In this document: in pieces, positions 3,114-64,000 of the stretch
Numbering within the stretch: position 1 is the stretch's first letter
Layout of the letters: every line of letters starts with the position of its first letter
IMG/VR virus record: IMGVR_UViG_3300020203_000404
Location: 87,811-151,810 of that record
Direction: 5' to 3' (one strand)
Length of the DNA: 64,000 nucleotides
Source: a virus
The notes under the pieces: generated by a model
What the model saw: only the letters and a program-made list of their open reading frames with translations
Databases searched by the model: none
Told to the model about the DNA's origin: nothing
Position numbers and translations under genes: made by a program

Positions 3114-4075
3114 TGAAATTACTTTATTGTGGACTAAGATTCAACTATGGCAAATCACTAGAGGGCGATAGCTACGAATATTGGAATTTTGAAGCTGGAT
3201 TGAAGGAATTTTGCTTATCTCATAAAATAGAACTTCAAATTTATTATCCAGACTATTCTAATATTGCTGTTGACGAACTATGCACTACGGCATTTGATGC
3301 CATTATTCACTTTGCCTTTAATGAATCATTAGATTTGCCAGAGTGTATTGCTAAATTGGCATTAAAGCGTGATGTTCCCGTTATTCAATTTGATGCAGAT
3401 TCAAGCTGGCGTTTCCAGAACTGGATCTTCCCGCGTCGTGACCGCGTGAGTCACTTTGTCACTACTCATTCTGCCACTATTCCTTGGTATGAAAAGAATG
3501 GCTTGAAAGTTATTAAGTCACAGTGGGCTGGTTCCCCGGCGTATAAGGCGAATCCGTGGGCGTATATGTACGACGCTACGTTTGTTGGCCAGAAGCATGG
3601 TCAGATGCCGAATGGCAAATTTCTACGCTCAGAGATCGTGGATGCCATTATGAACGCTGGTATCCGCGTTGACATCTTTGGTAATTACTGGGATGGTTAT
3701 GCCAACTGGCATGGCTACGCGAAGGACTTTGAAGAAGTGATTCGCGTATTCAATCAGTCGCGTGTCAATTTGAATCTGTCGAATCCATGGCATCATGGAA
3801 CGATGCCACAGATTAAGGGCAGGCACTTCGAAATTCCTCAGTGTCAAGGGTTTCAGATTAGTACGCCAGCAGACGATCTTGAATCTTACTTTGTACCAGA
3901 CAAGGAAATAGTCATTGCCAAAAACGTTCAAGAGTTGATTGAGAAGACACAATACTATCTTGCCAATCCAGAGGAGCGAGAGGTAATTGCTCAAGCGGGT
4001 CGTGACCGTATGCTTCGTGACCATCAATGGTACCATCGTTTCGAGTACATCTTTAAGGAAGTGGGATTGCTATGA
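3113..4075 (+). CDS. CgeB-like glycosyltransferase
   Basis: A 320-residue glycosyltransferase of the CgeB type. The C-terminal signature KGRHFEIPQCQGFQIS (about residues 242-257) corresponds to the family's RxFEixacGg motif, followed by acidic residues and a final helix ending HQWYHRFEYIF. It is a distant paralogue of the gene at 1477-2349. Start codon overlaps the upstream stop, and its own stop overlaps the next ATG, so the block is translationally coupled. Confidence 0.75.
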   Translation: MKLLYCGLRFNYGKSLEGDSYEYWNFEAGLKEFCLSHKIELQIYYPDYSNIAVDELCTTAFDAIIHFAFNESLDLPECIAKLALKRDVPVIQFDADSSWRFQNWIFPRRDRVSHFVTTHSATIPWYEKNGLKVIKSQWAGSPAYKANPWAYMYDATFVGQKHGQMPNGKFLRSEIVDAIMNAGIRVDIFGNYWDGYANWHGYAKDFEEVIRVFNQSRVNLNLSNPWHHGTMPQIKGRHFEIPQCQGFQISTPADDLESYFVPDKEIVIAKNVQELIEKTQYYLANPEEREVIAQAGRDRMLRDHQWYHRFEYIFKEVGLL

Positions 4076-18956: not shown

Positions 18957-19727
18957 ATGGTAAGACTAAATGGCGATCTCATTCCCGGTAGTAGTGGTCA
19001 AGCACACTTGGGCGTGAACGGTGGCGTAGGCGATGCATTTGATATAACCACGCTAACGCCGTTTGGTCGTATTCATATGAACTCTGGCGTCTGGCACGAT
19101 CCTATGACGGGTCAATCAGGCGTCCTTAGATATAGCCAAGCCGCAAGTGCGTTTCAGATCTCTATTGATGGAGGTCGTACGTTCAATAACTTGGTTACAA
19201 GTGCCGGAACTGTTACATCCGTTGGTGTAATTGGTGGTGCTAATCTTACTGGCAATATCGACCTAGCGACCCAAGCGAGCGGCTTCCTTGCTATCTTTGA
19301 CACTGCTGGTGCAAGCCCAATCAATTTTGCCGTTGATCATCTAGGTCTATCTGGCCTGTGGAGATTCCCACCACAAGGCTTCAATGGATCTGTTGTTAAT
19401 GAATTGACTGACTTCAATGGTACAAAAGTTCAAGGATCGGTAAGTGTTGTTGGTGCCTCTGGTGTCGTTGTTGATATTATTGGTCAAGTAATAACGATCA
19501 CCGCCGGTAATACACTACTGCGAGCATTTGCCCAAACTTTTGGTGCATTTGTAACTTGGACCGTCATTCACAATCTTGGTACGACAGATGTATCTGTAGA
19601 TGTTTATGATGCAAGTTCTCCACGTCTATCAATTATTCCCGATGCGATTGCAATTACAGATAGCAATACTGTTACTGTGACTTTTAACACCGCTCAAGCT
19701 GGCAGAGTTGTAATTTCAGGATTCTAA
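18957..19727 (+). CDS. Fibre-like protein with shared C-terminal module
   Basis: A 256-residue protein. The N-terminus (LIPGSSGQAHLGVNG, FGRIHMNSGVWHDPMTG) resembles that of the gene at 20494 (FAHVHMDSGIFHS), suggesting a shared virion attachment domain. The middle is Gly/Val-rich beta repeats. The last 60 residues match the end of the upstream protein. TTGGAGGAA lies before the ATG. Likely tail fibre or capsid fibre. Confidence 0.62.
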   Translation: MVRLNGDLIPGSSGQAHLGVNGGVGDAFDITTLTPFGRIHMNSGVWHDPMTGQSGVLRYSQAASAFQISIDGGRTFNNLVTSAGTVTSVGVIGGANLTGNIDLATQASGFLAIFDTAGASPINFAVDHLGLSGLWRFPPQGFNGSVVNELTDFNGTKVQGSVSVVGASGVVVDIIGQVITITAGNTLLRAFAQTFGAFVTWTVIHNLGTTDVSVDVYDASSPRLSIIPDAIAITDSNTVTVTFNTAQAGRVVISGF

Positions 19728-37317: not shown

Positions 37318-37597
37318 AACGACTACACTCCGTAACGACATTAAAGACGAGCGGTGATACAATCGACTGACCGGGCTGCGAACGCCAGAAACACACCGAT
37401 CGCACTTTCTGGATGTCAATCGAGATTTGAGAAACTCCGGGACTTTCTGCATTGTCACCGTCGAACGGATTGCCCTGTATCATTTCTGGCTGCATGAAAA
37501 TTTGCACGTCGTTCTCTTGCAACGTCATGCCATGTCTGCACGTCCAGCACCGACTTTGTTGCGGCGTGACATCTTCTTCTTCATCATCGTCATGCAT
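37304..37597 (-). CDS. Hypothetical zinc-binding protein
   Basis: A 97-residue protein with an acidic N-terminus (HDDDEEED) and CWTCRHGM near residue 17, with later single Cys residues (VCFW, TECSRY) that could complete a zinc site. Start overlaps the kinase stop (ATGCATGA). Not recognised. Confidence 0.55.
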   Translation of the reverse strand: MHDDDEEEDVTPQQSRCWTCRHGMTLQENDVQIFMQPEMIQGNPFDGDNAESPGVSQISIDIQKVRSVCFWRSQPGQSIVSPLVFNVVTECSRYEKN

Positions 37598-38006
37598 ATT
37601 CTTGTTCACTTTCAAGCGGCTGATACTTGTTGATTTGCCTTTGAACAATCTCTTTGGTTACACCATGAGTGTTTCGGGACGCGAATAGTTTGGCGTCCCA
37701 CGGACCCTTGATTCGATAAATTGTGACTTCGTAATCAAATTCCTTAGCCATTTGAAGGTACGGAGTTAATTCCCAGCGAGTCATGCTCGTGTTCGACACG
37801 ACCACCAGTTCTTTTTCGCTACTGACAGCTTCACGAACACGACGTTGACAGTCAGCGTGAGCTTGACTCAGCTTATTGGCCTCAAAAACGTACGTGCCGC
37901 TCCGCATAAAGAATTCGTCTGCCTCAAAGTGGAGACCTCCGAGTGCTTTAGCGGCGGTGGACTTGCCTGAGCCACTCGGCCCACGAAAGATGATGAGCTT
38001 CTTCAT
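37590..38006 (-). CDS. P-loop kinase, polynucleotide-kinase-like (AAA_33)
   Basis: A 138-residue kinase. IIFRGPSGSGKSTAAKAL is Walker A; VVVSNTSMTRWELTPYL matches the segment after Walker B in T4 polynucleotide kinase-like proteins; KLFASRNTHGVTKEIVQRQ is the lid. No phosphatase domain. A 5' RNA or DNA kinase role would complete a tRNA-repair set with the two RNA ligases and Cca; substrate not proven. ATG 38006 sits 6 nt after a -10 box. Confidence 0.72.
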   Translation of the reverse strand: MKKLIIFRGPSGSGKSTAAKALGGLHFEADEFFMRSGTYVFEANKLSQAHADCQRRVREAVSSEKELVVVSNTSMTRWELTPYLQMAKEFDYEVTIYRIKGPWDAKLFASRNTHGVTKEIVQRQINKYQPLESEQEYA

Positions 38007-38012
38007 TGCTTT

Positions 38013-38053
38013 ATCATACAACAGGGGCGTGCTCTTGTCAAGCACGCCCCTGT
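38013..38053 (-). promoter_or_regulatory. Hairpin with promoter -35 box in its loop, upstream of the kinase gene
   Basis: Arms 38021-38033 and 38041-38053 form a perfect 13-bp stem (ACAGGGGCGTGCT / AGCACGCCCCTGT). On the minus strand the loop region carries TTGACA (38036-38041); the far arm is the 17-bp spacer and TATGAT (38013-38018) follows, 6 nt before ATG. The hairpin lies 20 bp after the ssb stop and can also act as its terminator, so termination and initiation signals overlap. Confidence 0.8.
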
Positions 38054-38072: not shown

Positions 38073-38444
38073 TCAGAACAGCTTGCCTTCGCTCGTAGCC
38101 GCCTCCACAGGAGGTTCGTCGCTCTTTGGTCCACCACTGACGAAATTGAATCCGCCGAAGCTGTCGAGAATCATTTCAAGCTTAGAACGCTTATCGCCAT
38201 CCTTCGTTTCCCAGCGGTTCTGATGAATAGAGCCCTTTACGATGATCTGTTTACCCTTCGTGCAGTAAACCTTGATCGTATCGACCTGCTTACCAAAGGC
38301 CACACAATCAACGAATGCCGTTTCCTTTTTGTCACCAAATCCGGTGTTCACGGCGATGGTAAAACGAGCCACGTTCTTTTCTGGACCGATGATCTCAGGA
38401 TCAGCCGTCAAATTACCTTGCAAAATCACTACGTTCAAATTCAT
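38073..38444 (-). CDS. ssb: Single-stranded DNA-binding protein
   Basis: A 123-residue OB-fold protein. NVVILQGNLTADPEI is the start typical of bacterial Ssb, RFTIAVNTGFGDKKETAFVDCVAFGK the beta core and GSIHQNRWETKDG the next strand. The C-terminus ends GKLF, a weak version of the acidic DDDIPF tip. Coats ssDNA in replication and recombination. Coupled to the gene upstream by a 4-nt overlap. Confidence 0.9.
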   Translation of the reverse strand: MNLNVVILQGNLTADPEIIGPEKNVARFTIAVNTGFGDKKETAFVDCVAFGKQVDTIKVYCTKGKQIIVKGSIHQNRWETKDGDKRSKLEMILDSFGGFNFVSGGPKSDEPPVEAATSEGKLF

Positions 38445-46557: not shown

Positions 46558-46598
46558 GTTTTAATGATACATCATTCTCGCGGTCTGTCAAGCAAAAA

Positions 46599-47258
46599 TC
46601 ACTTTGAGCCGACGATTGAGCCGGGGGCGATGGTCGCGTTCTTGCTGACGGTCGCGTTCTTGCCGATGGTCGCGTTCCTGCCGATGGTCGCGTTCCTGCC
46701 GATGGTCACGTTCTCGCCGATGGTCGAGTACGAGCCGATGTGCGAACCCTCGCCGATGTGCGAACCCTCGCCGGTGTACGAATCCTCGCCGATGGTCGAG
46801 TACGAGCCGATGATCGCGTTCTTGCCGATGATCGCGTTCGGGCAGATGGTCACGTTCTCGCCGATGGTCACGTTCTCGTAGATGAGCACGTATTCGCCGA
46901 TGGTCACGTATTCGACGATGGTCACGTTCTCGCCGATGATCGCGTTCTTGCCGATGGTCGCGTTCGGGCAGATGGTCGAGTACGAGCCGATGGTCACGTT
47001 CCTGCCGATGATCGCGTTCGGGCAGATGGTCACGTTCTCGCCGATGTTCGCGTATTCGCCGATGGTCACGTTCCAGCCGATGTTCGCGTACTTGCCGATG
47101 TACGAGTACGAGCCGATGGTTGCGTTCTTGCCGATGATCGCGTTCTTGCCGATGCTCGCGTTCTTGCCGATGGTCACGTTCTCGTAGATGGTCACGTTCT
47201 CGCCGACGTTGACTTGAACGGTCTTGCCGTTCGGGTTCGTGTGCGTGATGGTTTTCAT
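46599..47258 (-). CDS. Hexapeptide-repeat left-handed beta-helix protein, copy 2 (219 aa)
   Basis: Longest copy: leader MKTITHTNPNGKTVQVNVG, about 31 hexapeptides, cap ATIAPGSIVGSK. It is 18 residues (three units, one helix turn) longer than copy 1. ATG 47258 follows TATCAT by 6 nt; an upstream in-frame ATG would lie inside the promoter. A few units break the rule (SYTGEGSHIGEGSHIG). Confidence 0.8.
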   Translation of the reverse strand: MKTITHTNPNGKTVQVNVGENVTIYENVTIGKNASIGKNAIIGKNATIGSYSYIGKYANIGWNVTIGEYANIGENVTICPNAIIGRNVTIGSYSTICPNATIGKNAIIGENVTIVEYVTIGEYVLIYENVTIGENVTICPNAIIGKNAIIGSYSTIGEDSYTGEGSHIGEGSHIGSYSTIGENVTIGRNATIGRNATIGKNATVSKNATIAPGSIVGSK

Positions 47259-47299
47259 GTTTTCATGATACATCATTCTCGCGGTCTGTCAAGCAAAAA

Positions 47300-47707
47300 T
47301 CACTTTGAGCCGACGATTGAGCCGGGGGTGATGGTCGCGTTCCTGCCGATGGTCGAGTGCGAGCCGATGCTCGCGTTCTTGCCGATGGTCACGTATTCGC
47401 CGATGGTCGAATTGACGCCGATGTACGAGTACAAGCCGATGTACGAGTGCAAGCCGATGGTTGCGTTCTCGCCGATGGTCACGTTCTTGTCGATGGTCGC
47501 GTGCTCGCCGATTTTCGAATCCTGGCCAATGTTCGCGTTCTCGCCGATGGTCACGTTCTCACCGATGTACGAGTCCTCGCAGATGGTCACGTATTCGCCG
47601 ATGGTCACGTTCTCGCAGATGGTTACGCCATAGCCGATGGTTACGTTCTCGCCGACGTTGACTTGAACGGTCTTGCCGTTCGGGTTCGTGTGCGTGATGG
47701 TTTTCAT
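47300..47707 (-). CDS. Hexapeptide-repeat left-handed beta-helix protein, copy 3 (135 aa)
   Basis: Same leader and cap (ATITPGSIVGSK), about 17 units. The start of the helix reads ENVTIGYGVTICENVTIG, as in the + strand copy at 63586, so these two are closest relatives although on opposite strands. Own promoter cassette upstream, -10 to ATG 6 nt. Confidence 0.8.
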   Translation of the reverse strand: MKTITHTNPNGKTVQVNVGENVTIGYGVTICENVTIGEYVTICEDSYIGENVTIGENANIGQDSKIGEHATIDKNVTIGENATIGLHSYIGLYSYIGVNSTIGEYVTIGKNASIGSHSTIGRNATITPGSIVGSK

Positions 47708-47748
47708 GTTTTAATGATACATCATTCTCGCGGTCTGTCAAGCAAAAA

Positions 47749-48246
47749 TCACTTTGAGCCGACGGTTGAGCCGGGGGCGATGGTCGCGTCCTGGCCGACG
47801 ATCGCGTTCTTGCCGATGGTCGCGTTCTTGCCGATGGTCGCGTTCTTGCCGATGGTCGCGTTCTTGCCGATGGTCACTTCCCGGCGGATGTGCGAGCCCT
47901 CGCCAATGGTCGCGTCCTGGCCGATGGTCACGTTCTCGCCGATGGTCGCGTTCCTGCCGATAGTCAAGTGCGAGCCGATGGTCGAGTGCGGGCCGATGGT
48001 CACGTTCTCGCCGATGTACGAGTCCTCGCCGATGTACGAGTCCTCGCCGATGGTCGAGTACGAGCCGATGGTCGAGTACGAGTCGATGGTCACGTTCTCG
48101 CCGATGGTCGAGTACGAGCCGATGGTCGCGTATTCGCCGATGGTCACGTTCTCGTCGATGGTCACGTTCTCGTCGATGTACGAATCCTCGCCGACGCTGA
48201 CTTGAACGGTCTTTCCGTTCGGGTTCGTGTGTGTGATGGTTTTCAT
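47749..48246 (-). CDS. Hexapeptide-repeat left-handed beta-helix protein, copy 4 (165 aa)
   Basis: Leader with VSVGEDSYI, about 22 units including HIRREVTIGKNATIG shared with copy 9, cap ATIAPGSTVGSK. It lacks the usual promoter cassette: the tRNA-Val gene lies directly upstream (5 bp), so it is probably read from tRNA transcription. Confidence 0.8.
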   Translation of the reverse strand: MKTITHTNPNGKTVQVSVGEDSYIDENVTIDENVTIGEYATIGSYSTIGENVTIDSYSTIGSYSTIGEDSYIGEDSYIGENVTIGPHSTIGSHLTIGRNATIGENVTIGQDATIGEGSHIRREVTIGKNATIGKNATIGKNATIGKNAIVGQDATIAPGSTVGSK

Positions 48247-48251
48247 TGTAT

Positions 48252-48325
48252 TGGTAGGCAATGAGGGAATTGAACCCCCGACTTCTGGATGTAAACCAGG
48301 CGTTTTACCACTAGACTAATCGCCC
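48252..48325 (-). tRNA. tRNA-Val (TAC)
   Basis: GGGCGAT / ATTGCCT acceptor, anticodon loop TTTACAT in CTGG/CCAG, T-loop TTCAATT, encoded CCA. Confidence 0.9.
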
Positions 48326-48333
48326 GTGCTAAG

Positions 48334-48660
48334 TCAATCCCAAAGATGGAAAAAGTGCTCTCGGAACAGATTGAGGCCAGTTTCAACCTCAGTCCGCTCT
48401 TCCTCAGTCAGCATGTATATCGCACCATCTGAATCGACAATCAGCTTGAATGCCCTATGCATCTTTTCAAGCATGACAAGCCACGCTTCGTGACCGCCCT
48501 CCAACCCCATTGGAAAGCCATGATTATAAGTGTCAATAAAAGCTCGCAGACGAGGCTCGATGAATGCAGCGACTGTATTATTAAGAGACCACAATTCGCT
48601 ATCGTCAAATCCGCGAGTAAGACGTTGCCATAAGAAGTGTATCTTGCGAGATAATTTCAT
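48334..48660 (-). CDS. Hypothetical protein
   Basis: A 108-residue protein, helical and acidic at the C-terminus (LTEEERTEVETGLNLF). Start ATG 48660 lies between the tRNA-Thr and tRNA-Val genes, so mRNA and tRNAs share transcripts. No family recognised. Confidence 0.55.
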   Translation of the reverse strand: MKLSRKIHFLWQRLTRGFDDSELWSLNNTVAAFIEPRLRAFIDTYNHGFPMGLEGGHEAWLVMLEKMHRAFKLIVDSDGAIYMLTEEERTEVETGLNLFREHFFHLWD

Positions 48661-48678
48661 ATTAATCCTAAAGTGTAT

Positions 48679-48755
48679 TGGAGCCATCGGTGGGCCACGA
48701 TCCCACAACCTATCGCTTACAAAGCGATTGCACCGCCTACTTGTGCTACGATGGC
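48679..48755 (-). tRNA. tRNA-Thr (TGT) with altered T-loop
   Basis: GCCATCG / CGATGGC acceptor, anticodon loop TTTGTAA in ATCGC/GCGAT, encoded CCA. The T-loop is ATCGTGG instead of TTCRANY: positions 54 and 58, normally T and A, are A and T. The T-stem GTGGG/CCCAC is intact. Confidence 0.82.
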
Positions 48756-48883
48756 ATTTTCTTTTTACGAATGCGTTTAGCATTCTTATATGATGTTGGT
48801 AGACCGTGACGGTGATGCTCTATCATACACCCTCTTACGAGGGTGTGGGCTTGAAAAAGAAGAATTACATTTTCAAGTGTATG

Positions 48884-48945
48884 GTGCCTCCCCGACGACC
48901 TTCTGCTCTTCACGCAGACGCTACTACTAACTGAGCTACAGAAGC
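48884..48945 (-). tRNA. tRNA-Phe-like (GAA) lacking the T-arm (62 nt)
   Basis: Acceptor GCTTCTG pairs with GGGAGGC plus A and encoded CCA; D-arm GCTC...; anticodon arm TCTGC GTGAAGA GCAGA reads GAA. Between AGGTC and the acceptor only GTC remains, so the T-arm is absent. Either a decayed gene or an armless tRNA or decoy. Confidence 0.6.
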
Positions 48946-48961
48946 AAAAGCATGCTTGTAT

Positions 48962-49039
48962 TGGTGGGGAAGGCAGGACTCGAACCTGCGACCTTAAGGG
49001 TATACACCCTTGTTGCTCTCCCAACTGAGCTACTTCCCC
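48962..49039 (-). tRNA. tRNA with ambiguous anticodon
   Basis: Good acceptor (GGGGAAG/CTTCCCC), D-arm (GCTCAGTTGGGAGAGC), T-arm (GCAGG TTCGAGT CCTGC) and CCA. The anticodon arm AAGGGTGTATACCCTT is nearly pal­indromic and can fold with a 6-nt or 4-nt loop, and there are two extra bases in the region, so the anticodon cannot be read safely. Confidence 0.75.
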
Positions 49040-49062
49040 ATAGTGGAGTTAATGTACTTTGA

Positions 49063-49139
49063 TGGTGGACCGGGGGAGTGACGATCTCCCGACTTTCGGA
49101 TGCAAACCGAATGTTTTACCAACTTAGAACTACCAGCCC
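49063..49139 (-). tRNA. tRNA-Ala (TGC) with altered T-loop
   Basis: GGGCTGG / CCGGTCC acceptor, anticodon loop TTTGCAT in TTCGG/CCGAA, encoded CCA. T-loop ATCGTCA within GGGAG/CTCCC again shows A54 and T58, as in tRNA-Thr at 48679. Confidence 0.82.
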
Positions 49140-49149
49140 ATCCTAGCCG

Positions 49150-49503
49150 TTAAACACCAAAGAGACGCATATCTTTACTATGTTTTTCAAGAGCATTTTC
49201 TAATTCCATAATGATCTTGCCATAGACAAGCTCTAAATGGTCAGGGACATTGTGACGATGATTCGAACCACGCTTTTCGTGGTACAGGTTCAATACAGCG
49301 GTGATCCGCAGAGCATTGTCACGCACCTTACGGGCCGCAACCCATGATCGCTTCACGTTGTCAGGCGTTTTAGCGTGATCTAACCAGTAAGAACTATGAC
49401 CAACTCTCCAGTAAGAATTGTGACCAACCTTATAAGGCCCCGTCTTGCGTTCCTTTTTGAGAGCCTTTTGGCTCTCAGACATTTGCTTAATTAGGTTCTT
49501 CAA
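49150..49503 (-). CDS. Hypothetical basic protein
   Basis: A protein of about 117 residues (TTG start at 49503, or a downstream ATG at MSESQKAL). Contains a short duplication, YKVGHNSYWRVGHSSYW. Very basic N-terminal half. Between tRNA-Ala and a tRNA-Trp relic. No family recognised. Confidence 0.5.
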   Translation of the reverse strand: MKNLIKQMSESQKALKKERKTGPYKVGHNSYWRVGHSSYWLDHAKTPDNVKRSWVAARKVRDNALRITAVLNLYHEKRGSNHRHNVPDHLELVYGKIIMELENALEKHSKDMRLFGV

Positions 49504-49551
49504 TGCGATCTGCGTATTTATAACGATTCACTCCGTTTATTGTTGAGCTTG

Positions 49552-49614
49552 AAAAGCCAAGTGGGGCTCGAACCCACGCACTGACCGTTTGGAGCGGTCT
49601 GAACTATACCCGCA
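49552..49614 (-). pseudogene. tRNA-Trp (CCA) relic without D-arm
   Basis: The anticodon arm GACCG CTCCAAA CGGTC and T-arm GTGGG TTCGAGC CCCAC are perfect, but the D-arm is reduced to TAGTTCA and the acceptor strands (GCGGGTA, TTGGCTT) do not pair; no CCA follows. Probably a deletion derivative. Confidence 0.6.
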
Positions 49615-49623
49615 AAATTGGAA

Positions 49624-49887
49624 TCACACGGGTTTCCAAATCTTAGTTATTGTTTCTACTTGCTTTACTTCAGTACAGTCAAGAAAAAACTCAAAGTCAT
49701 AATCAGTAAAATAACTTCCCGTACGGCTAACACATAGCTCGTAATAAGGACCGTCACCTTCTCTAAATATGACACTAAGATTAGACCATTTACCTTGGTC
49801 TTGCCACTCTCCGATTTCTATAACCGTATACTTATCGGAGTCGTCGGTGAGGATTTCAGCCGCTTCTGATTCTGTTAATTGCATCAT
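49624..49887 (-). CDS. Hypothetical protein downstream of a truncated repeat gene
   Basis: An 87-residue acidic alpha/beta protein (MMQLTESEAAEILTDDSDKY). AGAGGAAAC precedes the ATG. It overlaps the end of the truncated hexapeptide copy 5, whose promoter and start region now drive it. Function unknown. Confidence 0.55.
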   Translation of the reverse strand: MMQLTESEAAEILTDDSDKYTVIEIGEWQDQGKWSNLSVIFREGDGPYYELCVSRTGSYFTDYDFEFFLDCTEVKQVETITKIWKPV

Positions 49888-50012
49888 AGTTTCCTCTGGT
49901 AAATCAATGCTTGAAAGATGGTGGATCTTGAGCCGGGGGCGATGGTCGCGTGCTCGCCGACGTTGACTTGAACGGTCTTGCCGTTCGGGTTCGTGTGCGT
50001 GATGGTTTTCAT
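49884..50012 (-). pseudogene. Truncated hexapeptide-repeat gene, copy 5
   Basis: Leader MKTITHTNPNGKTVQVNVG followed by only EHATIAPGS, then 14 unrelated residues to a stop that overlaps the next gene's ATG. Promoter cassette intact (TTGACA, 16 bp, TATCAT, 6 nt, ATG). The helix has been deleted, leaving promoter plus start as a short upstream cistron. Confidence 0.7.
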
Positions 50013-50053
50013 GTTTTAATGATACATCATTCTCGCGGTCTGTCAAGCAAAAA

Positions 50054-50371
50054 TCACTTTAGGCCGACGATTGAGCCGGGGGCGATGGTCGCGTTCTTGC
50101 CGATGTACGAGTACGAGCCGATGGTCACGTTCTTGCCGATGATCGCGTTCGGGCAGATAGTCACGTATTCGCCGATGTTCGCGTTCTTGCCGATGTTCGC
50201 GTGCTTGCCGATGTACGAGTACGAGCCGATGTACGAGTGCGAGCCGATGGTCGAGTCCTCGCAGATGGTCACGTATTCGCCGATGATCGAGCCATCGGCG
50301 ATGGTCACGTTCTTGCCGACGCTGACTTGAACGGTTTTGCCGTTCGGGTTCGTGTGTGTGATGGTTTTCAT
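50054..50371 (-). CDS. Hexapeptide-repeat left-handed beta-helix protein, copy 6 (105 aa)
   Basis: Leader with VSVGKNVTIADGSIIG, about 12 units, cap ATIAPGSIVGLK. Variant promoter: TTGACG, 16 bp, TATAAT, TGAAGC, ATG. The -10 box is closer to consensus than in the other copies while the -35 is weaker. Confidence 0.8.
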   Translation of the reverse strand: MKTITHTNPNGKTVQVSVGKNVTIADGSIIGEYVTICEDSTIGSHSYIGSYSYIGKHANIGKNANIGEYVTICPNAIIGKNVTIGSYSYIGKNATIAPGSIVGLK

Positions 50372-50412
50372 GCTTCAATTATACATTATTCTCGCGGCTC
50401 GTCAAGCAAAAA

Positions 50413-50748
50413 TCACCTTAAGCCGACGGTTGAGCCATCGGCGATGGTCGCGTTCCTGCCGATGATCGAGTACGAGTCGATGGTCACGTTCTTGCCGACG
50501 GTCGAGTACGAGCCGATGTTCGCGTACTCGCCGATGTTCACGTACGAGCCGATGTTCACGTACGAGCCGATGTTCGCGTACGAGCCGATGTTCACGTACG
50601 AGCCGATGTTCGCGTACGAGCCGACGTTCGAGCCCCAGCTGATGGTTACGTGCTCGCCGATTGTCGCGTTCGGGCCGATGTTCGCGTTCGGGCCGACGTT
50701 GACTTGAACGGTCTTGCCGTTCGGGTTCGTGTGCGTGATGGTTTTCAT
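50413..50748 (-). CDS. Hexapeptide-repeat left-handed beta-helix protein, copy 7 (111 aa)
   Basis: Leader, then a run of alternating units built from SYANIG and SYVNIG (six in a row) in place of the ENVTIG type, cap ATIADGSTVGLR. The block shows local amplification of a 36-bp DNA unit. Cassette promoter with 6 nt to ATG. Confidence 0.8.
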   Translation of the reverse strand: MKTITHTNPNGKTVQVNVGPNANIGPNATIGEHVTISWGSNVGSYANIGSYVNIGSYANIGSYVNIGSYVNIGEYANIGSYSTVGKNVTIDSYSIIGRNATIADGSTVGLR

Positions 50749-50789
50749 GTTTTAATGATACATCATTCTCGCGGTCTGTCAAGCAAAAA

Positions 50790-51305
50790 TCACTTTGAGC
50801 CGACGGTTGAGCCATCGGCGATGGTCGCGTCCTGGCCGACGATCGCGTCCCGGACGATGTACGAGTTCTTGCCGATGATCGCGTTCTTGCCGATGGTCGC
50901 GTGCTCGCCGATGGTCACGTTCCTGCCGATGTTCGCGTTCTCGCAGATGAGCACGTATTCGCCGATGTACGAGTTCTCGCGGATGATCACGTTCTCGCCG
51001 ATGGTCACGTTCTTGCCGATGGTCACGTTCTTGCCGATGATCGCGTTCTTGTCGATGGTCGCGTTCCTGCCGATGGTCACGTTCTCGTAGATGAGCACGT
51101 ATTCGCCGATGGTCACGTTCTCGCCGATGTTCGCGTTCTTGCGGATGGTCGCGTTCGGGCAGATGGTCGAGCACGAGCCGACGTGCGAACCATCGGCGAT
51201 GTTCGCGTATTCGCCGATGGTCACGTTCCAGCCGATGGTCACGTTCTCGCCGACGTTGACTTGAACGGTCTTGCCGTTCGGGTTCGTGTGTTTGATTGTA
51301 TTCAT
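50790..51305 (-). CDS. Hexapeptide-repeat left-handed beta-helix protein, copy 8 (171 aa)
   Basis: Leader variant MNTIKHTNPNGKTVQVNVG, about 23 units, cap ATIADGSTVGSK. Contains VLIYENVTIG and VLICENANIG turns shared with copies 1 and 2. Cassette promoter present. Confidence 0.8.
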   Translation of the reverse strand: MNTIKHTNPNGKTVQVNVGENVTIGWNVTIGEYANIADGSHVGSCSTICPNATIRKNANIGENVTIGEYVLIYENVTIGRNATIDKNAIIGKNVTIGKNVTIGENVIIRENSYIGEYVLICENANIGRNVTIGEHATIGKNAIIGKNSYIVRDAIVGQDATIADGSTVGSK

Positions 51306-51346
51306 GTTTTAATGATACATCATTCTCGCGGTCTGTCAAGCAAAAG

Positions 51347-51772
51347 TCACTTTGAGCCGACGATTGAGCCGGGGGCGATGGTCGCGTCCTGGCCGACGAT
51401 CGCGTCCCGGACGATGTACGAGTTCTCGCCGATGTTCGCGTTCTCGCCGATGATCGCGTTCTTGCCGACGGTCGAGTACGAGCCGATGGTCACGTTCTTG
51501 CCGATGGTCGCGTTCTCGCCGATGGTCACTTCCCGGCGGACGTGCGAGCCCTCGCCAATGGTCGCGTCCTGGCCGATGGTCACGTTCTCACCGATGGTCA
51601 CTTCCCGGCGGACGTGCGAGCCCTCGCCAATGGTCGCGTTCTCGCCGATGGTCGCGTTCTCGCAGATGGTCACGTTCTCGCCGATGGTCACGTTCTTGCC
51701 GATGGTCACGTTCTTGCCGACGCTGACTTGAACGGTTTCGCCGTTCGGGTTCGTGTGCGTGATGGTTTTCAT
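51347..51772 (-). CDS. Hexapeptide-repeat left-handed beta-helix protein, copy 9 (141 aa)
   Basis: Leader with NPNGETVQVSVG, about 18 units including a duplicated block ATIGEGSHVRREVTIG (twice), cap ATIAPGSIVGSK. The duplication spans about 60 bp of DNA and is nearly exact. The upstream copy 10 reads through this gene's promoter region. Confidence 0.8.
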   Translation of the reverse strand: MKTITHTNPNGETVQVSVGKNVTIGKNVTIGENVTICENATIGENATIGEGSHVRREVTIGENVTIGQDATIGEGSHVRREVTIGENATIGKNVTIGSYSTVGKNAIIGENANIGENSYIVRDAIVGQDATIAPGSIVGSK

Positions 51773-51786
51773 GTTTTAATGATACA

Positions 51787-52257
51787 TCATTCTCGCGGTC
51801 TGTCAAGCAAAAAACACTTTGGGCCGACGGTTGAGCCATCGGCGATGGTCGCGTTCCTGCCGATGATCGAGTACGAGTCGATGGTCACGTTCTTGCCGAC
51901 GGTCGAGTACGAGCCGATGATCGCGTTCTTGCCGATGGTCGCGTTCTCGCCGATGGTCGCGTTCTCGCCGATGATCGCGTTCTGGCCGATGTACGAGTAC
52001 GAGCCGATGGTTGCGTTCAAGCCGATGGTCGCGTTCCTGCCGATGGTCGCGTTCTCGCCGATGATCGCGTTCGGGCAGATGATCACGTATTCGACGATGG
52101 TCGAGTACGAGTCGATGTTCGAACCGACGCCGATGTTCGCGTTCTCGCCGATGGTCACGTTCTCGCCGATGATCGCGTTCTTGGCGATGGTCACGTTCTC
52201 GCCGACGCTGACTTGAACGGTTTCGCCGTTCGGGTTCGTGTGTGTGATGATATTCAT
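51787..52257 (-). CDS. Hexapeptide-repeat left-handed beta-helix protein, copy 10, extended (156 aa)
   Basis: Leader variant MNIITHTNPNGETVQVSVG, about 20 units, cap ATIADGSTVGPK. The usual TGA after the cap Lys is TGT here, so the frame continues nine residues (CFLLDRPRE) across the -35 region of copy 9's promoter. A different promoter is used: TATCCT, 5 nt to ATG, the same as at 58952. Confidence 0.78.
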   Translation of the reverse strand: MNIITHTNPNGETVQVSVGENVTIAKNAIIGENVTIGENANIGVGSNIDSYSTIVEYVIICPNAIIGENATIGRNATIGLNATIGSYSYIGQNAIIGENATIGENATIGKNAIIGSYSTVGKNVTIDSYSIIGRNATIADGSTVGPKCFLLDRPRE

Positions 52258-52295
52258 GTCTTAGGATACCCTATAAGTGCGAAAAAAGCAAAAAA

Positions 52296-52595
52296 TCACT
52301 CTGGGCCGATGTACGAGTACAAGCCGATGTACGAGTCCTTACCGATGGTCACGTGCTCGCCGGTGGTCACGTGCTCACAGATGGTCACGTTCTCGCCGAT
52401 GGTCGAGCCATCGCCGATGATCGCGTGCTTGCCGATGTTCGAGCCCTGGCCGATGTTCAAGTCCTCGCCGATGGTCGAACCCCGACCGATTGTCACGAAC
52501 TTGCCGATGGTCACGTTCTCGCCGATGGTCACGTTCTTGCCGACGCTGACTTGAACGGTTTTACCGTTCGGGTTCGTGTGTGTGATGGTTTTCAT
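52296..52595 (-). CDS. Hexapeptide-repeat left-handed beta-helix protein, copy 11 (99 aa)
   Basis: First gene of the minus-strand array. Leader with VSVGKNVTIG, about 13 units that are more divergent (RGSTIGEDLNIGQGSNIG), ending YSYIGPE without the normal cap. Promoter TTGACG, 16 bp, TATAAT, 6 nt to ATG 52595. Confidence 0.78.
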   Translation of the reverse strand: MKTITHTNPNGKTVQVSVGKNVTIGENVTIGKFVTIGRGSTIGEDLNIGQGSNIGKHAIIGDGSTIGENVTICEHVTTGEHVTIGKDSYIGLYSYIGPE

Positions 52596-52719
52596 GCTTC
52601 GATTATACATCATTCTCGCGGCTCGTCAAGCAAAAAATCACTCTAAAAAGCGGTCGCGACTCTCAATGGCCTACACCAACACAGAATCTCATTTTTTTCT
52701 TTTCAAGTTGTCTTGAAGA

Positions 52720-57828: not shown

Positions 57829-57857
57829 ATTATACCCACTAAACAGCTATTTGTCAA
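57829..57857 (-). promoter_or_regulatory. Consensus promoter of the AAA+ gene, predicted leaderless
   Basis: TTGACA (57852-57857), 17-bp spacer, TATAAT (57829-57834), AGAGGC, ATG. Perfect match to sigma-70 boxes; overlaps the 3' end of the gene upstream. Confidence 0.85.
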
Positions 57858-59982: not shown

Positions 59983-60061
59983 TGCGGAGTAGAGAAGCCC
60001 GGCTGTTCTCGTCTGCCTCATAAGCAGAAGATCGTGGGTTCGAATCCCACCTCCGCTACCA
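59983..60061 (+). tRNA. tRNA with CAT anticodon, initiator-like
   Basis: Acceptor TGCGGAG / CTCCGCT has a T1-T72 mismatch, D-arm GAGA AGCCCGGCTGT TCTC, anticodon loop CTCATAA, T-loop TTCGAAT, encoded CCA. The layout follows bacterial tRNA-fMet (unpaired first position, AGCCYGG D-loop, CTCATAA), but the three G-C pairs of the initiator anticodon stem are replaced by TGC/GCA. Confidence 0.85.
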
Positions 60062-60099
60062 TTTATCGAAGCACGAAGACTTGCGGAACAAGGAGCGGC

Positions 60100-61206
60100 G
60101 TGAAGGTACAGCGTGGTTACAAGACCGAATTGAGGTTGAACGACAAACAACGAACCGCATGTCTCAAACATGCAGGGGCGGCTCGTTACACCTACAATTG
60201 GGGCTTGAGCCAGAAGAAGATGGCATACGAGAACGGCGAAAAGACGCCCAACGCCATCGAACTCCACCGCCGACTCAATGCTCTCAAACCGACTGAACTG
60301 CCGTGGATGTACGCAGTATCAAAGTGCAGCCCACAAGAGGCTCTACGCAATCTGGATCGTGCCTACGATAACTTCTTCAAGAAGCGGGGCAAGTTCCCAA
60401 AGTTCAAGAGCAAAAAGAATGGCATCGGCGGCTTCCGGCTGACTGGCACAATCAAGGTTACGGAGAACACGGTGCAACTGCCCCGGCTCGGTGTCCTGAA
60501 ACTCAAGGAACGTGGCTATTTGCCCACGGACGCCAAGATACTGTCAGCAAGCGTCTCAGAACGTGCTGGACGCTGGTTCGTGAGCATTCAGGTCGAGGAA
60601 GACCTACCAGAGTACAACGGCGTCAAGGACGAGCATGACGTGGTTGGCGTGGACTTGGGCATCAAGACGTTGGCAACCGTGAGTGATGGTACGAAGTACG
60701 AGAACCCGAAGCCGTTGAAGACGAAACTCAGAAAGTTGAAGAAACTCCAGCAGAGCGTCAGCCGGAAGGTCAAAGGAAGCCAGAACAGGAAGAAAGCGAC
60801 CAAGAAAGTAGCCCGACTCCATCTCAGGATCAGCAACGTCCGCAAGAACACGTTGCACAAGATGACGACGACTTTAGCGAAAACCAAGCGGGTTGTCGTG
60901 ATCGAGGACTTGAATGTGTCTGGCATGATGAAGAACAGGTGCTTGTCTCGGTCGATAGCCGATCTTGGCTTGTTTGAATTACGAAGACAGTTGTCCTATA
61001 AGGGCGGCTGGTATTCTTGCAAGATCGTGCCAGTGGACAGGTTCTTCCCATCCAGCAAGACGTGTAGCGTCTGCGGGGAGATCAAGGAAGACTTGACACT
61101 GGCTGATCGAGAATGGGATTGTGGCGGTTGTGGTACGCATCATGACCGGGATCACAACGCATCAGTTAATTTAGAGAACGTCGCTGCAAGTTCTGTAGAG
61201 ACGTAA
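60100..61206 (+). CDS. tnpB: TnpB, RNA-guided nuclease of the IS200/IS605 group
   Basis: A 368-residue protein with GTG start (AAGGAG 6 nt before). The N-terminal HTH/WED part begins GYKTELRLNDKQ; VVGVDLGIKTLATVSDG is RuvC-I with the catalytic Asp; VVIEDLNVSGMMKN is RuvC-II with Glu; CSVCGEIKEDL and CGGCGTHHDRDHNASVN give the zinc ribbon and RuvC-III Asp. All catalytic residues are present. No tnpA is nearby, so it moves, if at all, in trans. Confidence 0.9.
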   Translation: MKVQRGYKTELRLNDKQRTACLKHAGAARYTYNWGLSQKKMAYENGEKTPNAIELHRRLNALKPTELPWMYAVSKCSPQEALRNLDRAYDNFFKKRGKFPKFKSKKNGIGGFRLTGTIKVTENTVQLPRLGVLKLKERGYLPTDAKILSASVSERAGRWFVSIQVEEDLPEYNGVKDEHDVVGVDLGIKTLATVSDGTKYENPKPLKTKLRKLKKLQQSVSRKVKGSQNRKKATKKVARLHLRISNVRKNTLHKMTTTLAKTKRVVVIEDLNVSGMMKNRCLSRSIADLGLFELRRQLSYKGGWYSCKIVPVDRFFPSSKTCSVCGEIKEDLTLADREWDCGGCGTHHDRDHNASVNLENVAASSVET

Positions 61207-62261: not shown

Positions 62262-63146
62262 ATGACTCAAGCAACGACCGACTTCCTGAACCGCGAAAAC
62301 ATGAACTACAGCGTGCAAAGCGTACCGGCTCCGCATCCCGTGTATCGTGATCGGAACGTCGAGGGACAATACCACCTTGTTCGCTCCACGGACAATGTCG
62401 TAGTCTCGTTGAAAACCGTCTCGAAAAGGTACGTCGCGACGTGCCCGATTGACATGATCGCCCCGATCGCCCCTCTGATCGCCGAGGGCTGGGTGACGCC
62501 TGAGCGAGGTTTCATGCTCTCCGAAGGGTCGCACGAGATGCTGGTGTTCAAGATCGACGGCGGCAAGCTCGACAACGGCGGTAGGGTCGATGGTGAGGAT
62601 TGGGACCACTTTTTCCAGCTTCACAACTTCCAGGGGTCTGGATCGTTTTTCGGCTCGCTCTTCGCCCGGCGTCAGGTCTGTTCAAACGGTGCCGTTCGCG
62701 TCGTGAGCAAGGGTAACGGGTTCCGTCTCCGCCACATGGGAGCCCTTCAAGCGAAGTACGAAGATGCGATGCGAACGTGGGAAGATATCCAGGTCGAGAT
62801 CCGCAAGCTCTCGAAGCGGATGACGCTCTGGAACGGTCAAAGGCTGACCTACTCCGAAGCCGTCGCCCTTTTCAACATGATCTATGATGTCGAGGATCCG
62901 AGCGACATCGCAACGCGGACGGAAAACGAACTCAAGTTTGCGATCAGCGAGTTCTCGAATCCAGGCCGTGGCACCTACGGCAAGACCGTTGCGGATGTCT
63001 ACAACGCGATCACGGCGACAAATACGCACTACGCCCCCAAGGGTAGCCGCGAGACGGAAACGAAGCGGATGTCAAGCCTTTTCAATCCGAACGGCTCGCG
63101 GAACCTCCTCGAAGGTCGGGCAATCGAAGTGCTGTCGAGCCTCTAA
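62262..63146 (+). CDS. DUF932-like protein
   Basis: A 294-residue protein resembling the phage/plasmid DUF932 family: KTVSKRYVATCPIDMIAPIAPLI near residue 55, a beta core (HEMLVFKIDGG), RQVCSNGAVRVV and FRLRHMG in the middle and a helical end with TVADVYNAITATNTHYAPKG. Family members are common on phages and plasmids with unknown function. Base composition is more GC-rich than in the left half of the window. Confidence 0.72.
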   Translation: MTQATTDFLNRENMNYSVQSVPAPHPVYRDRNVEGQYHLVRSTDNVVVSLKTVSKRYVATCPIDMIAPIAPLIAEGWVTPERGFMLSEGSHEMLVFKIDGGKLDNGGRVDGEDWDHFFQLHNFQGSGSFFGSLFARRQVCSNGAVRVVSKGNGFRLRHMGALQAKYEDAMRTWEDIQVEIRKLSKRMTLWNGQRLTYSEAVALFNMIYDVEDPSDIATRTENELKFAISEFSNPGRGTYGKTVADVYNAITATNTHYAPKGSRETETKRMSSLFNPNGSRNLLEGRAIEVLSSL

Positions 63147-63150
63147 TTAG

Positions 63151-63192
63151 TCCGGGGTGGCGGTTGACAAGACCGCCACTCCGGACTATACT
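63151..63192 (+). promoter_or_regulatory. Hairpin with -35 box in its loop, upstream of a small membrane gene
   Basis: Arms 63151-63164 and 63172-63185 form a 14-bp stem with one G-T pair; the loop is TGACAAG. TTGACA (63164-63169), 17 bp, TATACT (63187-63192), 8 nt to ATG. It begins 5 bp after the DUF932 stop. Same design and same TTGACAAG loop as 38013-38053. Confidence 0.8.
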
Positions 63193-63200
63193 CTAACCTC

Positions 63201-63362
63201 ATGGGACATCGCTGGGATCGTGACTACAATCGAGCCTCTAGACCACCTCCCGACCTTATTGGTGACGCCAAGGGCGTTCTCACGGAATGGATCTTGCTGG
63301 CACTAGGGACCGCACTACTGGGGTGTTTCATCAAGTTTATGGGATGGAACACGGACGACTGA
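63201..63362 (+). CDS. Small membrane protein (53 aa)
   Basis: Frame MGHRWDRDYNRASRPPPDL...LTEWILLALGTALLGCFIKF...NTDD: a polar Pro-rich N-terminus and one transmembrane helix. Strong promoter upstream and a strong terminator 4 bp after the stop make it a self-contained unit. Function unknown. Confidence 0.65.
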   Translation: MGHRWDRDYNRASRPPPDLIGDAKGVLTEWILLALGTALLGCFIKFMGWNTDD

Positions 63363-63365
63363 CTA

Positions 63366-63398
63366 GGGGGCGGCTCTTTTGAGCCGCCCCCAATTCTT
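63366..63398 (+). terminator. Strong hairpin terminator
   Basis: GGGGGCGGCTC (63366-63376), loop TTTT, GAGCCGCCCCC (63381-63391) followed by AATTCTT. Perfect 11-bp stem after the 53-aa membrane protein gene. Confidence 0.85.
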
Positions 63399-63541: not shown

Positions 63542-63585
63542 TGATTTTTGTTTGACAGACCGCGAGAATGATGTATCATTAAAAC

Positions 63586-63921
63586 ATGAAAACCATCACG
63601 CACACGAACCCGAACGGCAAGACCGTTCAAGTCAACGTCGGCTCGAACGTAACCATCGGCTATGGCGTAACCATCTGCGAGAACGTGACCATCGGCGAAT
63701 ACGCGAACATCGTCGATGGTTCGCACGTCGGCTCGTACTCGACCATCGGCAAGAACGCGACCATCGGCAAGAACGCGATCATCCGCGAGCACGCGACCAT
63801 CGGCAAGAACGCGATCATCCGCGAGCACGCGACCATCGGCGAGAACGCGACCATCGGCAAGAACTCGTACATCGGCAAGAACGCGACCATCGCCCCCGGC
63901 TCAATCGTCGGCTCAAAGTGA
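63586..63921 (+). CDS. Hexapeptide-repeat left-handed beta-helix protein, copy 12 (111 aa)
   Basis: Leader MKTITHTNPNGKTVQVNVG, SNVTIGYGVTICENVTIG as in copy 3, a duplicated AIIREHATIGKN block, cap ATIAPGSIVGSK. Promoter TTGACA (63552-63557), 16 bp, TATCAT (63574-63579), 6 nt to ATG. Opposite strand to copies 1-11. Confidence 0.8.
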   Translation: MKTITHTNPNGKTVQVNVGSNVTIGYGVTICENVTIGEYANIVDGSHVGSYSTIGKNATIGKNAIIREHATIGKNAIIREHATIGENATIGKNSYIGKNATIAPGSIVGSK

Positions 63922-63962
63922 TTTTTGCTTGACAGACCGCGAGAATGATGTATCATTAAAAC

Positions 63963-64000
63963 ATGAAAACCATCACGCACACGAACCCGAACGGCAAGAC
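63963..64000 (+). CDS. Hexapeptide-repeat protein, copy 13 (cut by window end)
   Basis: Leader MKTITHTNPNGK is visible before the window ends, preceded by an intact promoter cassette (TTGACA, 16 bp, TATCAT). The + strand array therefore continues beyond this window. Confidence 0.75.
   Translation, partial: MKTITHTNPNGK

Follow-up and report, generated by a model that had tools for sequence, protein, structure and literature searches.

Promoter-early stem-loops (PeSLs) are intergenic cassettes that combine a strong sigma70-like promoter with an effective terminator stem-loop, and their repeats mediate modular shuffling or the formation of mini-circles. Those of the phages RB49 and phi1 were reportedly described by Arbiol et al. 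in 2010 and by Comeau et al. in 2014. In the bacterial promoters of leaderless genes, the -10 box lies about 6 nt before the ATG; to our knowledge, such promoters are not hairpin-linked. PeSLs of the T4-type phages RB49/phi1 are covered in PMC4503421, and leaderless transcripts in mycobacteria in PMC4633059.

The units analyzed here resemble PeSLs in being small intergenic cassettes of large tailed phages, in which a predicted strong sigma70-like promoter is paired with a stem-loop. As in leaderless-gene promoters, a gap of only 5-9 nt separates the -10 box from the ATG, which leaves no room for a Shine-Dalgarno leader, but the present units are hairpin-bearing junction elements of phages. The GC-rich hairpin is a feature that the units share with canonical intrinsic terminators. 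An ordinary intrinsic terminator with a promoter behind it obeys the same junction logic and is a form also used by these phages (contig G006 at the ssb junction); it has a separate U-tract, whereas in the units the two signals share bases.

The window, i.e., the whole stretch of 64,000 nucleotides that was analyzed, is the final 64 kb of a virus contig of 151,810 bp. A hairpin with a promoter, which an earlier note had described at 63 kb together with a counterpart at 38.0 kb, was confirmed by direct reading and folding; its true span is 63148-63188 and reaches slightly past the coordinates given in that note. The features of the two sites are as follows.

62262-63146, + strand: DUF932 gene upstream of the 63-kb hairpin (ORF call and domain match)
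63148-63188, + strand: hairpin of 18 bp with a 5-nt unpaired loop, -35 box in the loop and spacer in the distal arm (sequence and folding)
63164-63169, + strand: -35 box TTGACA (perfect), in the hairpin loop (read from the sequence)
63187-63192, + strand: -10 box TATACT after a 17-bp spacer, at the position expected for a terminator U-tract (read from the sequence)
63201-63362, + strand: 53-aa ORF downstream of the 63-kb hairpin, ATG 8 nt past the -10 box, predicted to be nearly leaderless
63366-63391, + strand: terminator-like ordinary hairpin GGGGGCGGCTC-tttt-GAGCCGCCCCC at the end of the 53-aa gene (hairpin search)
38073-38444, - strand: ssb gene upstream of the twin hairpin (Pfam SSB)
38021-38053, - strand: twin hairpin of 13-14 bp with TTGACA (38041-38036) in the loop (sequence and folding)
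38013-38018, - strand: twin -10 box TATGAT after a 17-bp spacer (read from the sequence)
37590-38006, - strand: AAA_33/kinase-like gene downstream of the twin, ATG exactly 6 nt past the -10 box TATGAT

The 63-kb site reads TAGTCCGGGGTGGCGGT-TGACAAG-ACCGCCACTCCGGACTA followed by TATACT, with the final TA of the stem common to the -10 box, and the stop codon of the DUF932 gene ends 1 nt ahead of the stem. The RNA of this hairpin folds at -36.3 kcal/mol (z = -7.7), and none of 200 shuffles was as good. Both sites indeed have TTGACA in the loop, a 17-bp spacer and a -10 box after the stem (TATACT at 63 kb, TATGAT at 38 kb). The equal arm lengths claimed by the earlier note did not hold, with 17-18 bp at 63 kb versus 13-14 bp at 38 kb. 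The 53-aa ORF has a homologue in the related contig G001 (91%) and, as judged by eye, one likely transmembrane helix. At 38 kb, we infer that the kinase-like gene is started by the twin promoter. The octamer TTGACAAG by itself occurs 8 times in the window versus 2.8 expected; it is not special, whereas its placement in a long stem with a -10 box behind it is. A literal TTGACAAG pattern at a fixed 14-nt distance, which is the wrong spacing, found no match in the contig, and an Rfam search returned tRNAs only.

This genome has many near-consensus promoters in which an ATG follows the -10 box by 5–8 nt; near-perfect promoters number 31 versus ~2 expected. A separate genome-wide count is biased because start selection rewarded such spacing. 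Widespread leaderless transcription is likely in this phage. Promoters of this -10/ATG type are spread across the contig, e.g., at window positions 57857 (-), 59731 (-), 38041 (-) and 63552 (+). A family of small hexapeptide-repeat (LbH-like) ORFs is found at window positions 46591-52629 (-) and 63552-64000 (+) and at contig positions 30-6350 (+), thus at either end of the contig as well as in its middle, each member behind an almost identical promoter TTGACAgaccgcgagaatgatgTATCATtaaaacATG.

Relatives were collected by SSB and DUF932 searches of viral contigs and taken nearly whole; these contigs are metagenomic and may be incomplete. The eight DUF932 proteins were too diverse to be used as a single alignment for searching, and two sub-alignments were used instead; a DUF932 search among 'phages' found nothing. 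In 11 related phage contigs (1.6 Mb), 22 sites that combine a near-consensus promoter with a stem no shorter than 10 bp were found when one -35 mismatch was allowed. Clean units number 19 and occur in 9 of the 11 genomes, with stems of 10–17 bp and a spacer of 16 or 17. Without exception, a co-directional stop codon lies 1–27 nt upstream of the clean units and an ATG 5–9 nt past their -10 box (mode 6), a codon context that rests on crude ORF calls. The G005 site at 128301 was left out of the clean units, as a tRNA begins too near its -10 box, and the AT-rich G007 site at 19472 (TTTACA) belongs to the 22 sites and stands outside the 19. A further unit is flanked by tRNA-Met and tRNA-Arg; no translation takes place there that could be regulated. 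In the window, a TnpB (OrfB_IS605) gene at 60034-61206 adjoins the tRNA-Met at 59983-60061, and for another tRNA at 48962-49039 ARAGORN left the anticodon reading undetermined (4-base). The nearest relatives of the TnpB come from Chloroflexota MAGs (58-59%) and then from Actinomycetota, which is too weak for an inference of the host.

At the DUF932 junction, a unit is present in G000, G001, G003, G004, G008 and G012, with different stems and with protein identity down to ~30%. In G005 and G006, a plain terminator hairpin stands in its place, with the T-rich tails atttcatttt and attttccgg, respectively, and G007 shows a GC-rich repeat that by eye is less regular. At the ssb junction, TTGACA overlaps the 3' end of the hairpin in G006, and the hairpins of G005 and G008 are arranged in other ways. 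A common core, GGGGCCGC-TTGACA-GCGGCCCC, recurs in units of G011 (40345, 40618, 43324), G008 (19751) and G012 (36788), which read as duplicated cassettes; the three in G011 are near-identical and located within 3 kb. The further examples that the earlier note proposed to look for in relatives thus exist, having unrelated stems and the same architecture at tandem gene junctions in 9 of 11 related phages. As to the search across phages that it proposed, two scans for exact stems among 2.9 million viral contigs gave matches in this clade only; similar single cases elsewhere are one RB49 early promoter and the contig L218. The same phages also contain ordinary terminators whose T-run leads straight into TTGAC(A/G) or a sequence close to it (G003 53396, G005 41907, G006 120277, G007 126894, G008 87956, G012 103846), which by their sequence are adjacent terminator-promoter units. 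A further motif, TTAGTGTATT, is modestly enriched and often stands right after structural-region terminator hairpins (contig coordinates G000 105386, G008 58624, 76292 and 128371, and others); it is possibly a late promoter.

The structure of the units is kept while the sequence of the stem changes. Among the nine ssb junctions found by ssb homology, the four that carry the unit were compared: both partners had changed in 7 of 13 stem pairs and pairing held for 98% of cells, whereas a control in which the partner was shifted by 1–3 columns gave at most 54%. As an example, GGGGCGTGC/GCACGCCCC is replaced by GGGGCACGC/GCGTGCCCC in the closest relative. An alignment of seven sites in a single register shows covariation at 10 of 13 pairs, a figure biased upward because the non-orthologous sites were chosen as hairpins. 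Imperfect stem pairs were G·T in 8 cases and A·C in none, both being scored alike (p = 0.004 with orthologues kept in, which is optimistic because orthologous sites are not independent). Departures of the G·T but not of the A·C kind indicate that selection acts on an RNA structure with the orientation of the upstream gene, which points to the RNA of that gene, rather than the DNA, as its target.

Directly visible in the units are the hairpin, the near-consensus promoter spacing, the position and the structural conservation with turnover of the stem. From these, we infer promoter activity, termination and a leaderless start. The unit is probably a composite junction element, in which a terminator (or 3'-end hairpin) is combined with a host-sigma promoter for a nearly leaderless mRNA. 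In the RNA of the upstream gene, the palindrome would form a GC-rich hairpin, by which the transcript would be terminated, or at least capped, right past the stop codon. The same bases as double-stranded DNA would form a strong sigma70/sigmaA promoter, with the -35 box in the loop, the distal arm as spacer and the -10 box after the stem. Transcription would start at the ATG of the next gene or within ~3 nt of it, so that the mRNA would be leaderless or nearly so and the hairpin absent from it. In this way, ~45 bp would insulate two tandem genes and restart transcription. The sigma and terminator rules applied here were assumed ones. Judged by sequence, the promoters of the units are predicted to be strong and sigma70-like (TTGACA-17-TATACT), 22 being near-consensus with stems of at least 10 bp. 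The designation terminator-promoter in the earlier note is plausible and is the best explanation, although its terminator half is putative and comes without a proper U-tract, the place of which is taken by the -10 box. An uninterrupted U-tract directly 3' of the stem was not found, TATACT or TATGAT standing there. The 9 nt after the stem contain on average 3.45 T in the units versus 3.97 in plain hairpins after stop codons; after unit stems there are typically 3-4 T in these 9 nt, interrupted and mostly part of the -10 box.

Terminators and promoters are both intergenic, and adjacent terminator-then-promoter arrangements also occur in these phages, as would be expected if two common intergenic features of compact genomes merely overlapped by coincidence and without function. 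Because both signals are intergenic, the position of the hairpins relative to the -35 box was examined: 14 of ~45 hairpins within ±80 nt have their centres in the two 6-nt bins covering the -35 box, and the other bins hold at most 6. Exact TTGACA combined with a -10 box at 16–18 bp and a stem no shorter than 10 bp occurs at 10 sites in 9 genomes, whereas 60 permuted -35 hexamers under the same -10 and stem rule in these genomes gave a mean of 0.08 and a maximum of 1. Shuffled genomes yielded 0 sites in each of six sets versus the 22 observed in 11 genomes. The sharp positional peak, the permuted-hexamer null and the retention at orthologous junctions down to ~30% protein identity make coincidence extremely improbable, and the recurrence with unrelated stems at tandem junctions in 9 of 11 related phages lends strong support to the view of a module as opposed to chance. 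A palindrome centred on the -35 box also occupies the classic position of an operator, which a dimeric repressor or activator of phage or host might bind to control the promoter, and the three near-identical copies in G011 would suit such a site. An operator is nevertheless very unlikely, given that stems are wholly different, both among the copies of a single genome and at orthologous junctions, with changes that preserve pairing, that wobble is tolerated on the sense strand only, that every clean unit lies past a co-directional gene end and that no conserved half-site was seen across the stems. We also give little credence to an action at the DNA level, in which a supercoiling-driven cruciform or a hairpin in single-stranded replicating DNA would expose or hide the -35 box and thereby tune the promoter. 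With their short loops, stems of 10-17 bp are of the extrudable kind and the -35 box sits exactly in the loop, but G·T without A·C departures indicate RNA of one strand, and a cruciform predicts neither the strict tie to upstream stop codons nor plain terminators as a replacement at the same junction. The operator and the cruciform were both rejected on the turnover of the stems and the G·T/A·C asymmetry.

The hairpin could instead be a 3'-end stabiliser or an RNase processing stop of the upstream mRNA, with the promoter superimposed to save space. Very stable stems directly past stop codons and poor U-tracts fit this explanation, which also accounts for the covariation and the G·T bias. We consider it unlikely, as the hairpin at the DUF932 junction of two relatives (G005 and G006) looks like a terminator and is followed by a T-rich tail, and the unit between two tRNA genes needs no mRNA stabiliser. 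For bacterial RNA polymerase in vitro, sliding after termination and reinitiation at nearby promoters have been described (PMC6978380). It is conceivable, though rather doubtful, that the overlap itself is the mechanism in the units: a polymerase releasing the upstream RNA at the hairpin would meet the next -10/-35 boxes and re-initiate, in a hand-over from gene to gene.

Returning to the composite element, its likeness to PeSLs extends to the intergenic position between tandem genes, seen for the 19 clean units, and to the repetition of same-core copies within one genome (G011); three such copies within 3 kb would allow repeat-mediated modular shuffling. The hairpin of the units is stable and covarying with a poor U-tract, and termination is a prediction. 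Compared with PeSLs, the -35 box in the loop is the rule here, the -10 box takes the place of the U-tract, and the transcript would be nearly leaderless. A scan of RB49 gave 13 strong stems near early promoters, of which 3 lie just upstream of the -35 box (centre about -27), 4 have the -10 box in or near the loop (centre about +24; one at a 1-mismatch -35) and 1 lies near the -35 box. The -10 box is inside the hairpin loop at RB49 (L227) 3201, 39130 and 42355 and at L228 44253. In L218, an unrelated viral contig, the site at 3316 reads AAAAATAGGCTATT-gacaa-AATAGCCTATTTTTta-TATTAT, with the -35 box in the loop and then a real T-run. A -35 box in the loop thus appears to have some precedent (one case in RB49, and L218) and as a rule to be a feature of this clade. 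A portal search found no isolate above ~24% identity, the best being Bacillus and Microcystis phages, and terminase and portal comparisons found no T4 relative (remote PHROG matches only); an rIIA-like gene is present in the phage. The unit is best read as a distinct, compact and repeatedly evolved variant of T4-type promoter–terminator cassettes that would work like PeSLs.

As the covariation evidence shows, phages have more than once fitted a terminator-like hairpin and a promoter within a single stretch of ~45 bp, with the -35 box in the loop and the -10 box where the U-tract belongs. The units offer a natural test case for the minimal U-tract that a terminator requires, and for whether the overlap of both signals aids re-initiation by RNA polymerase. 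They would represent a compact insulator-plus-promoter part and may mark a leaderless-transcription lifestyle in an uncultured clade of large phages.
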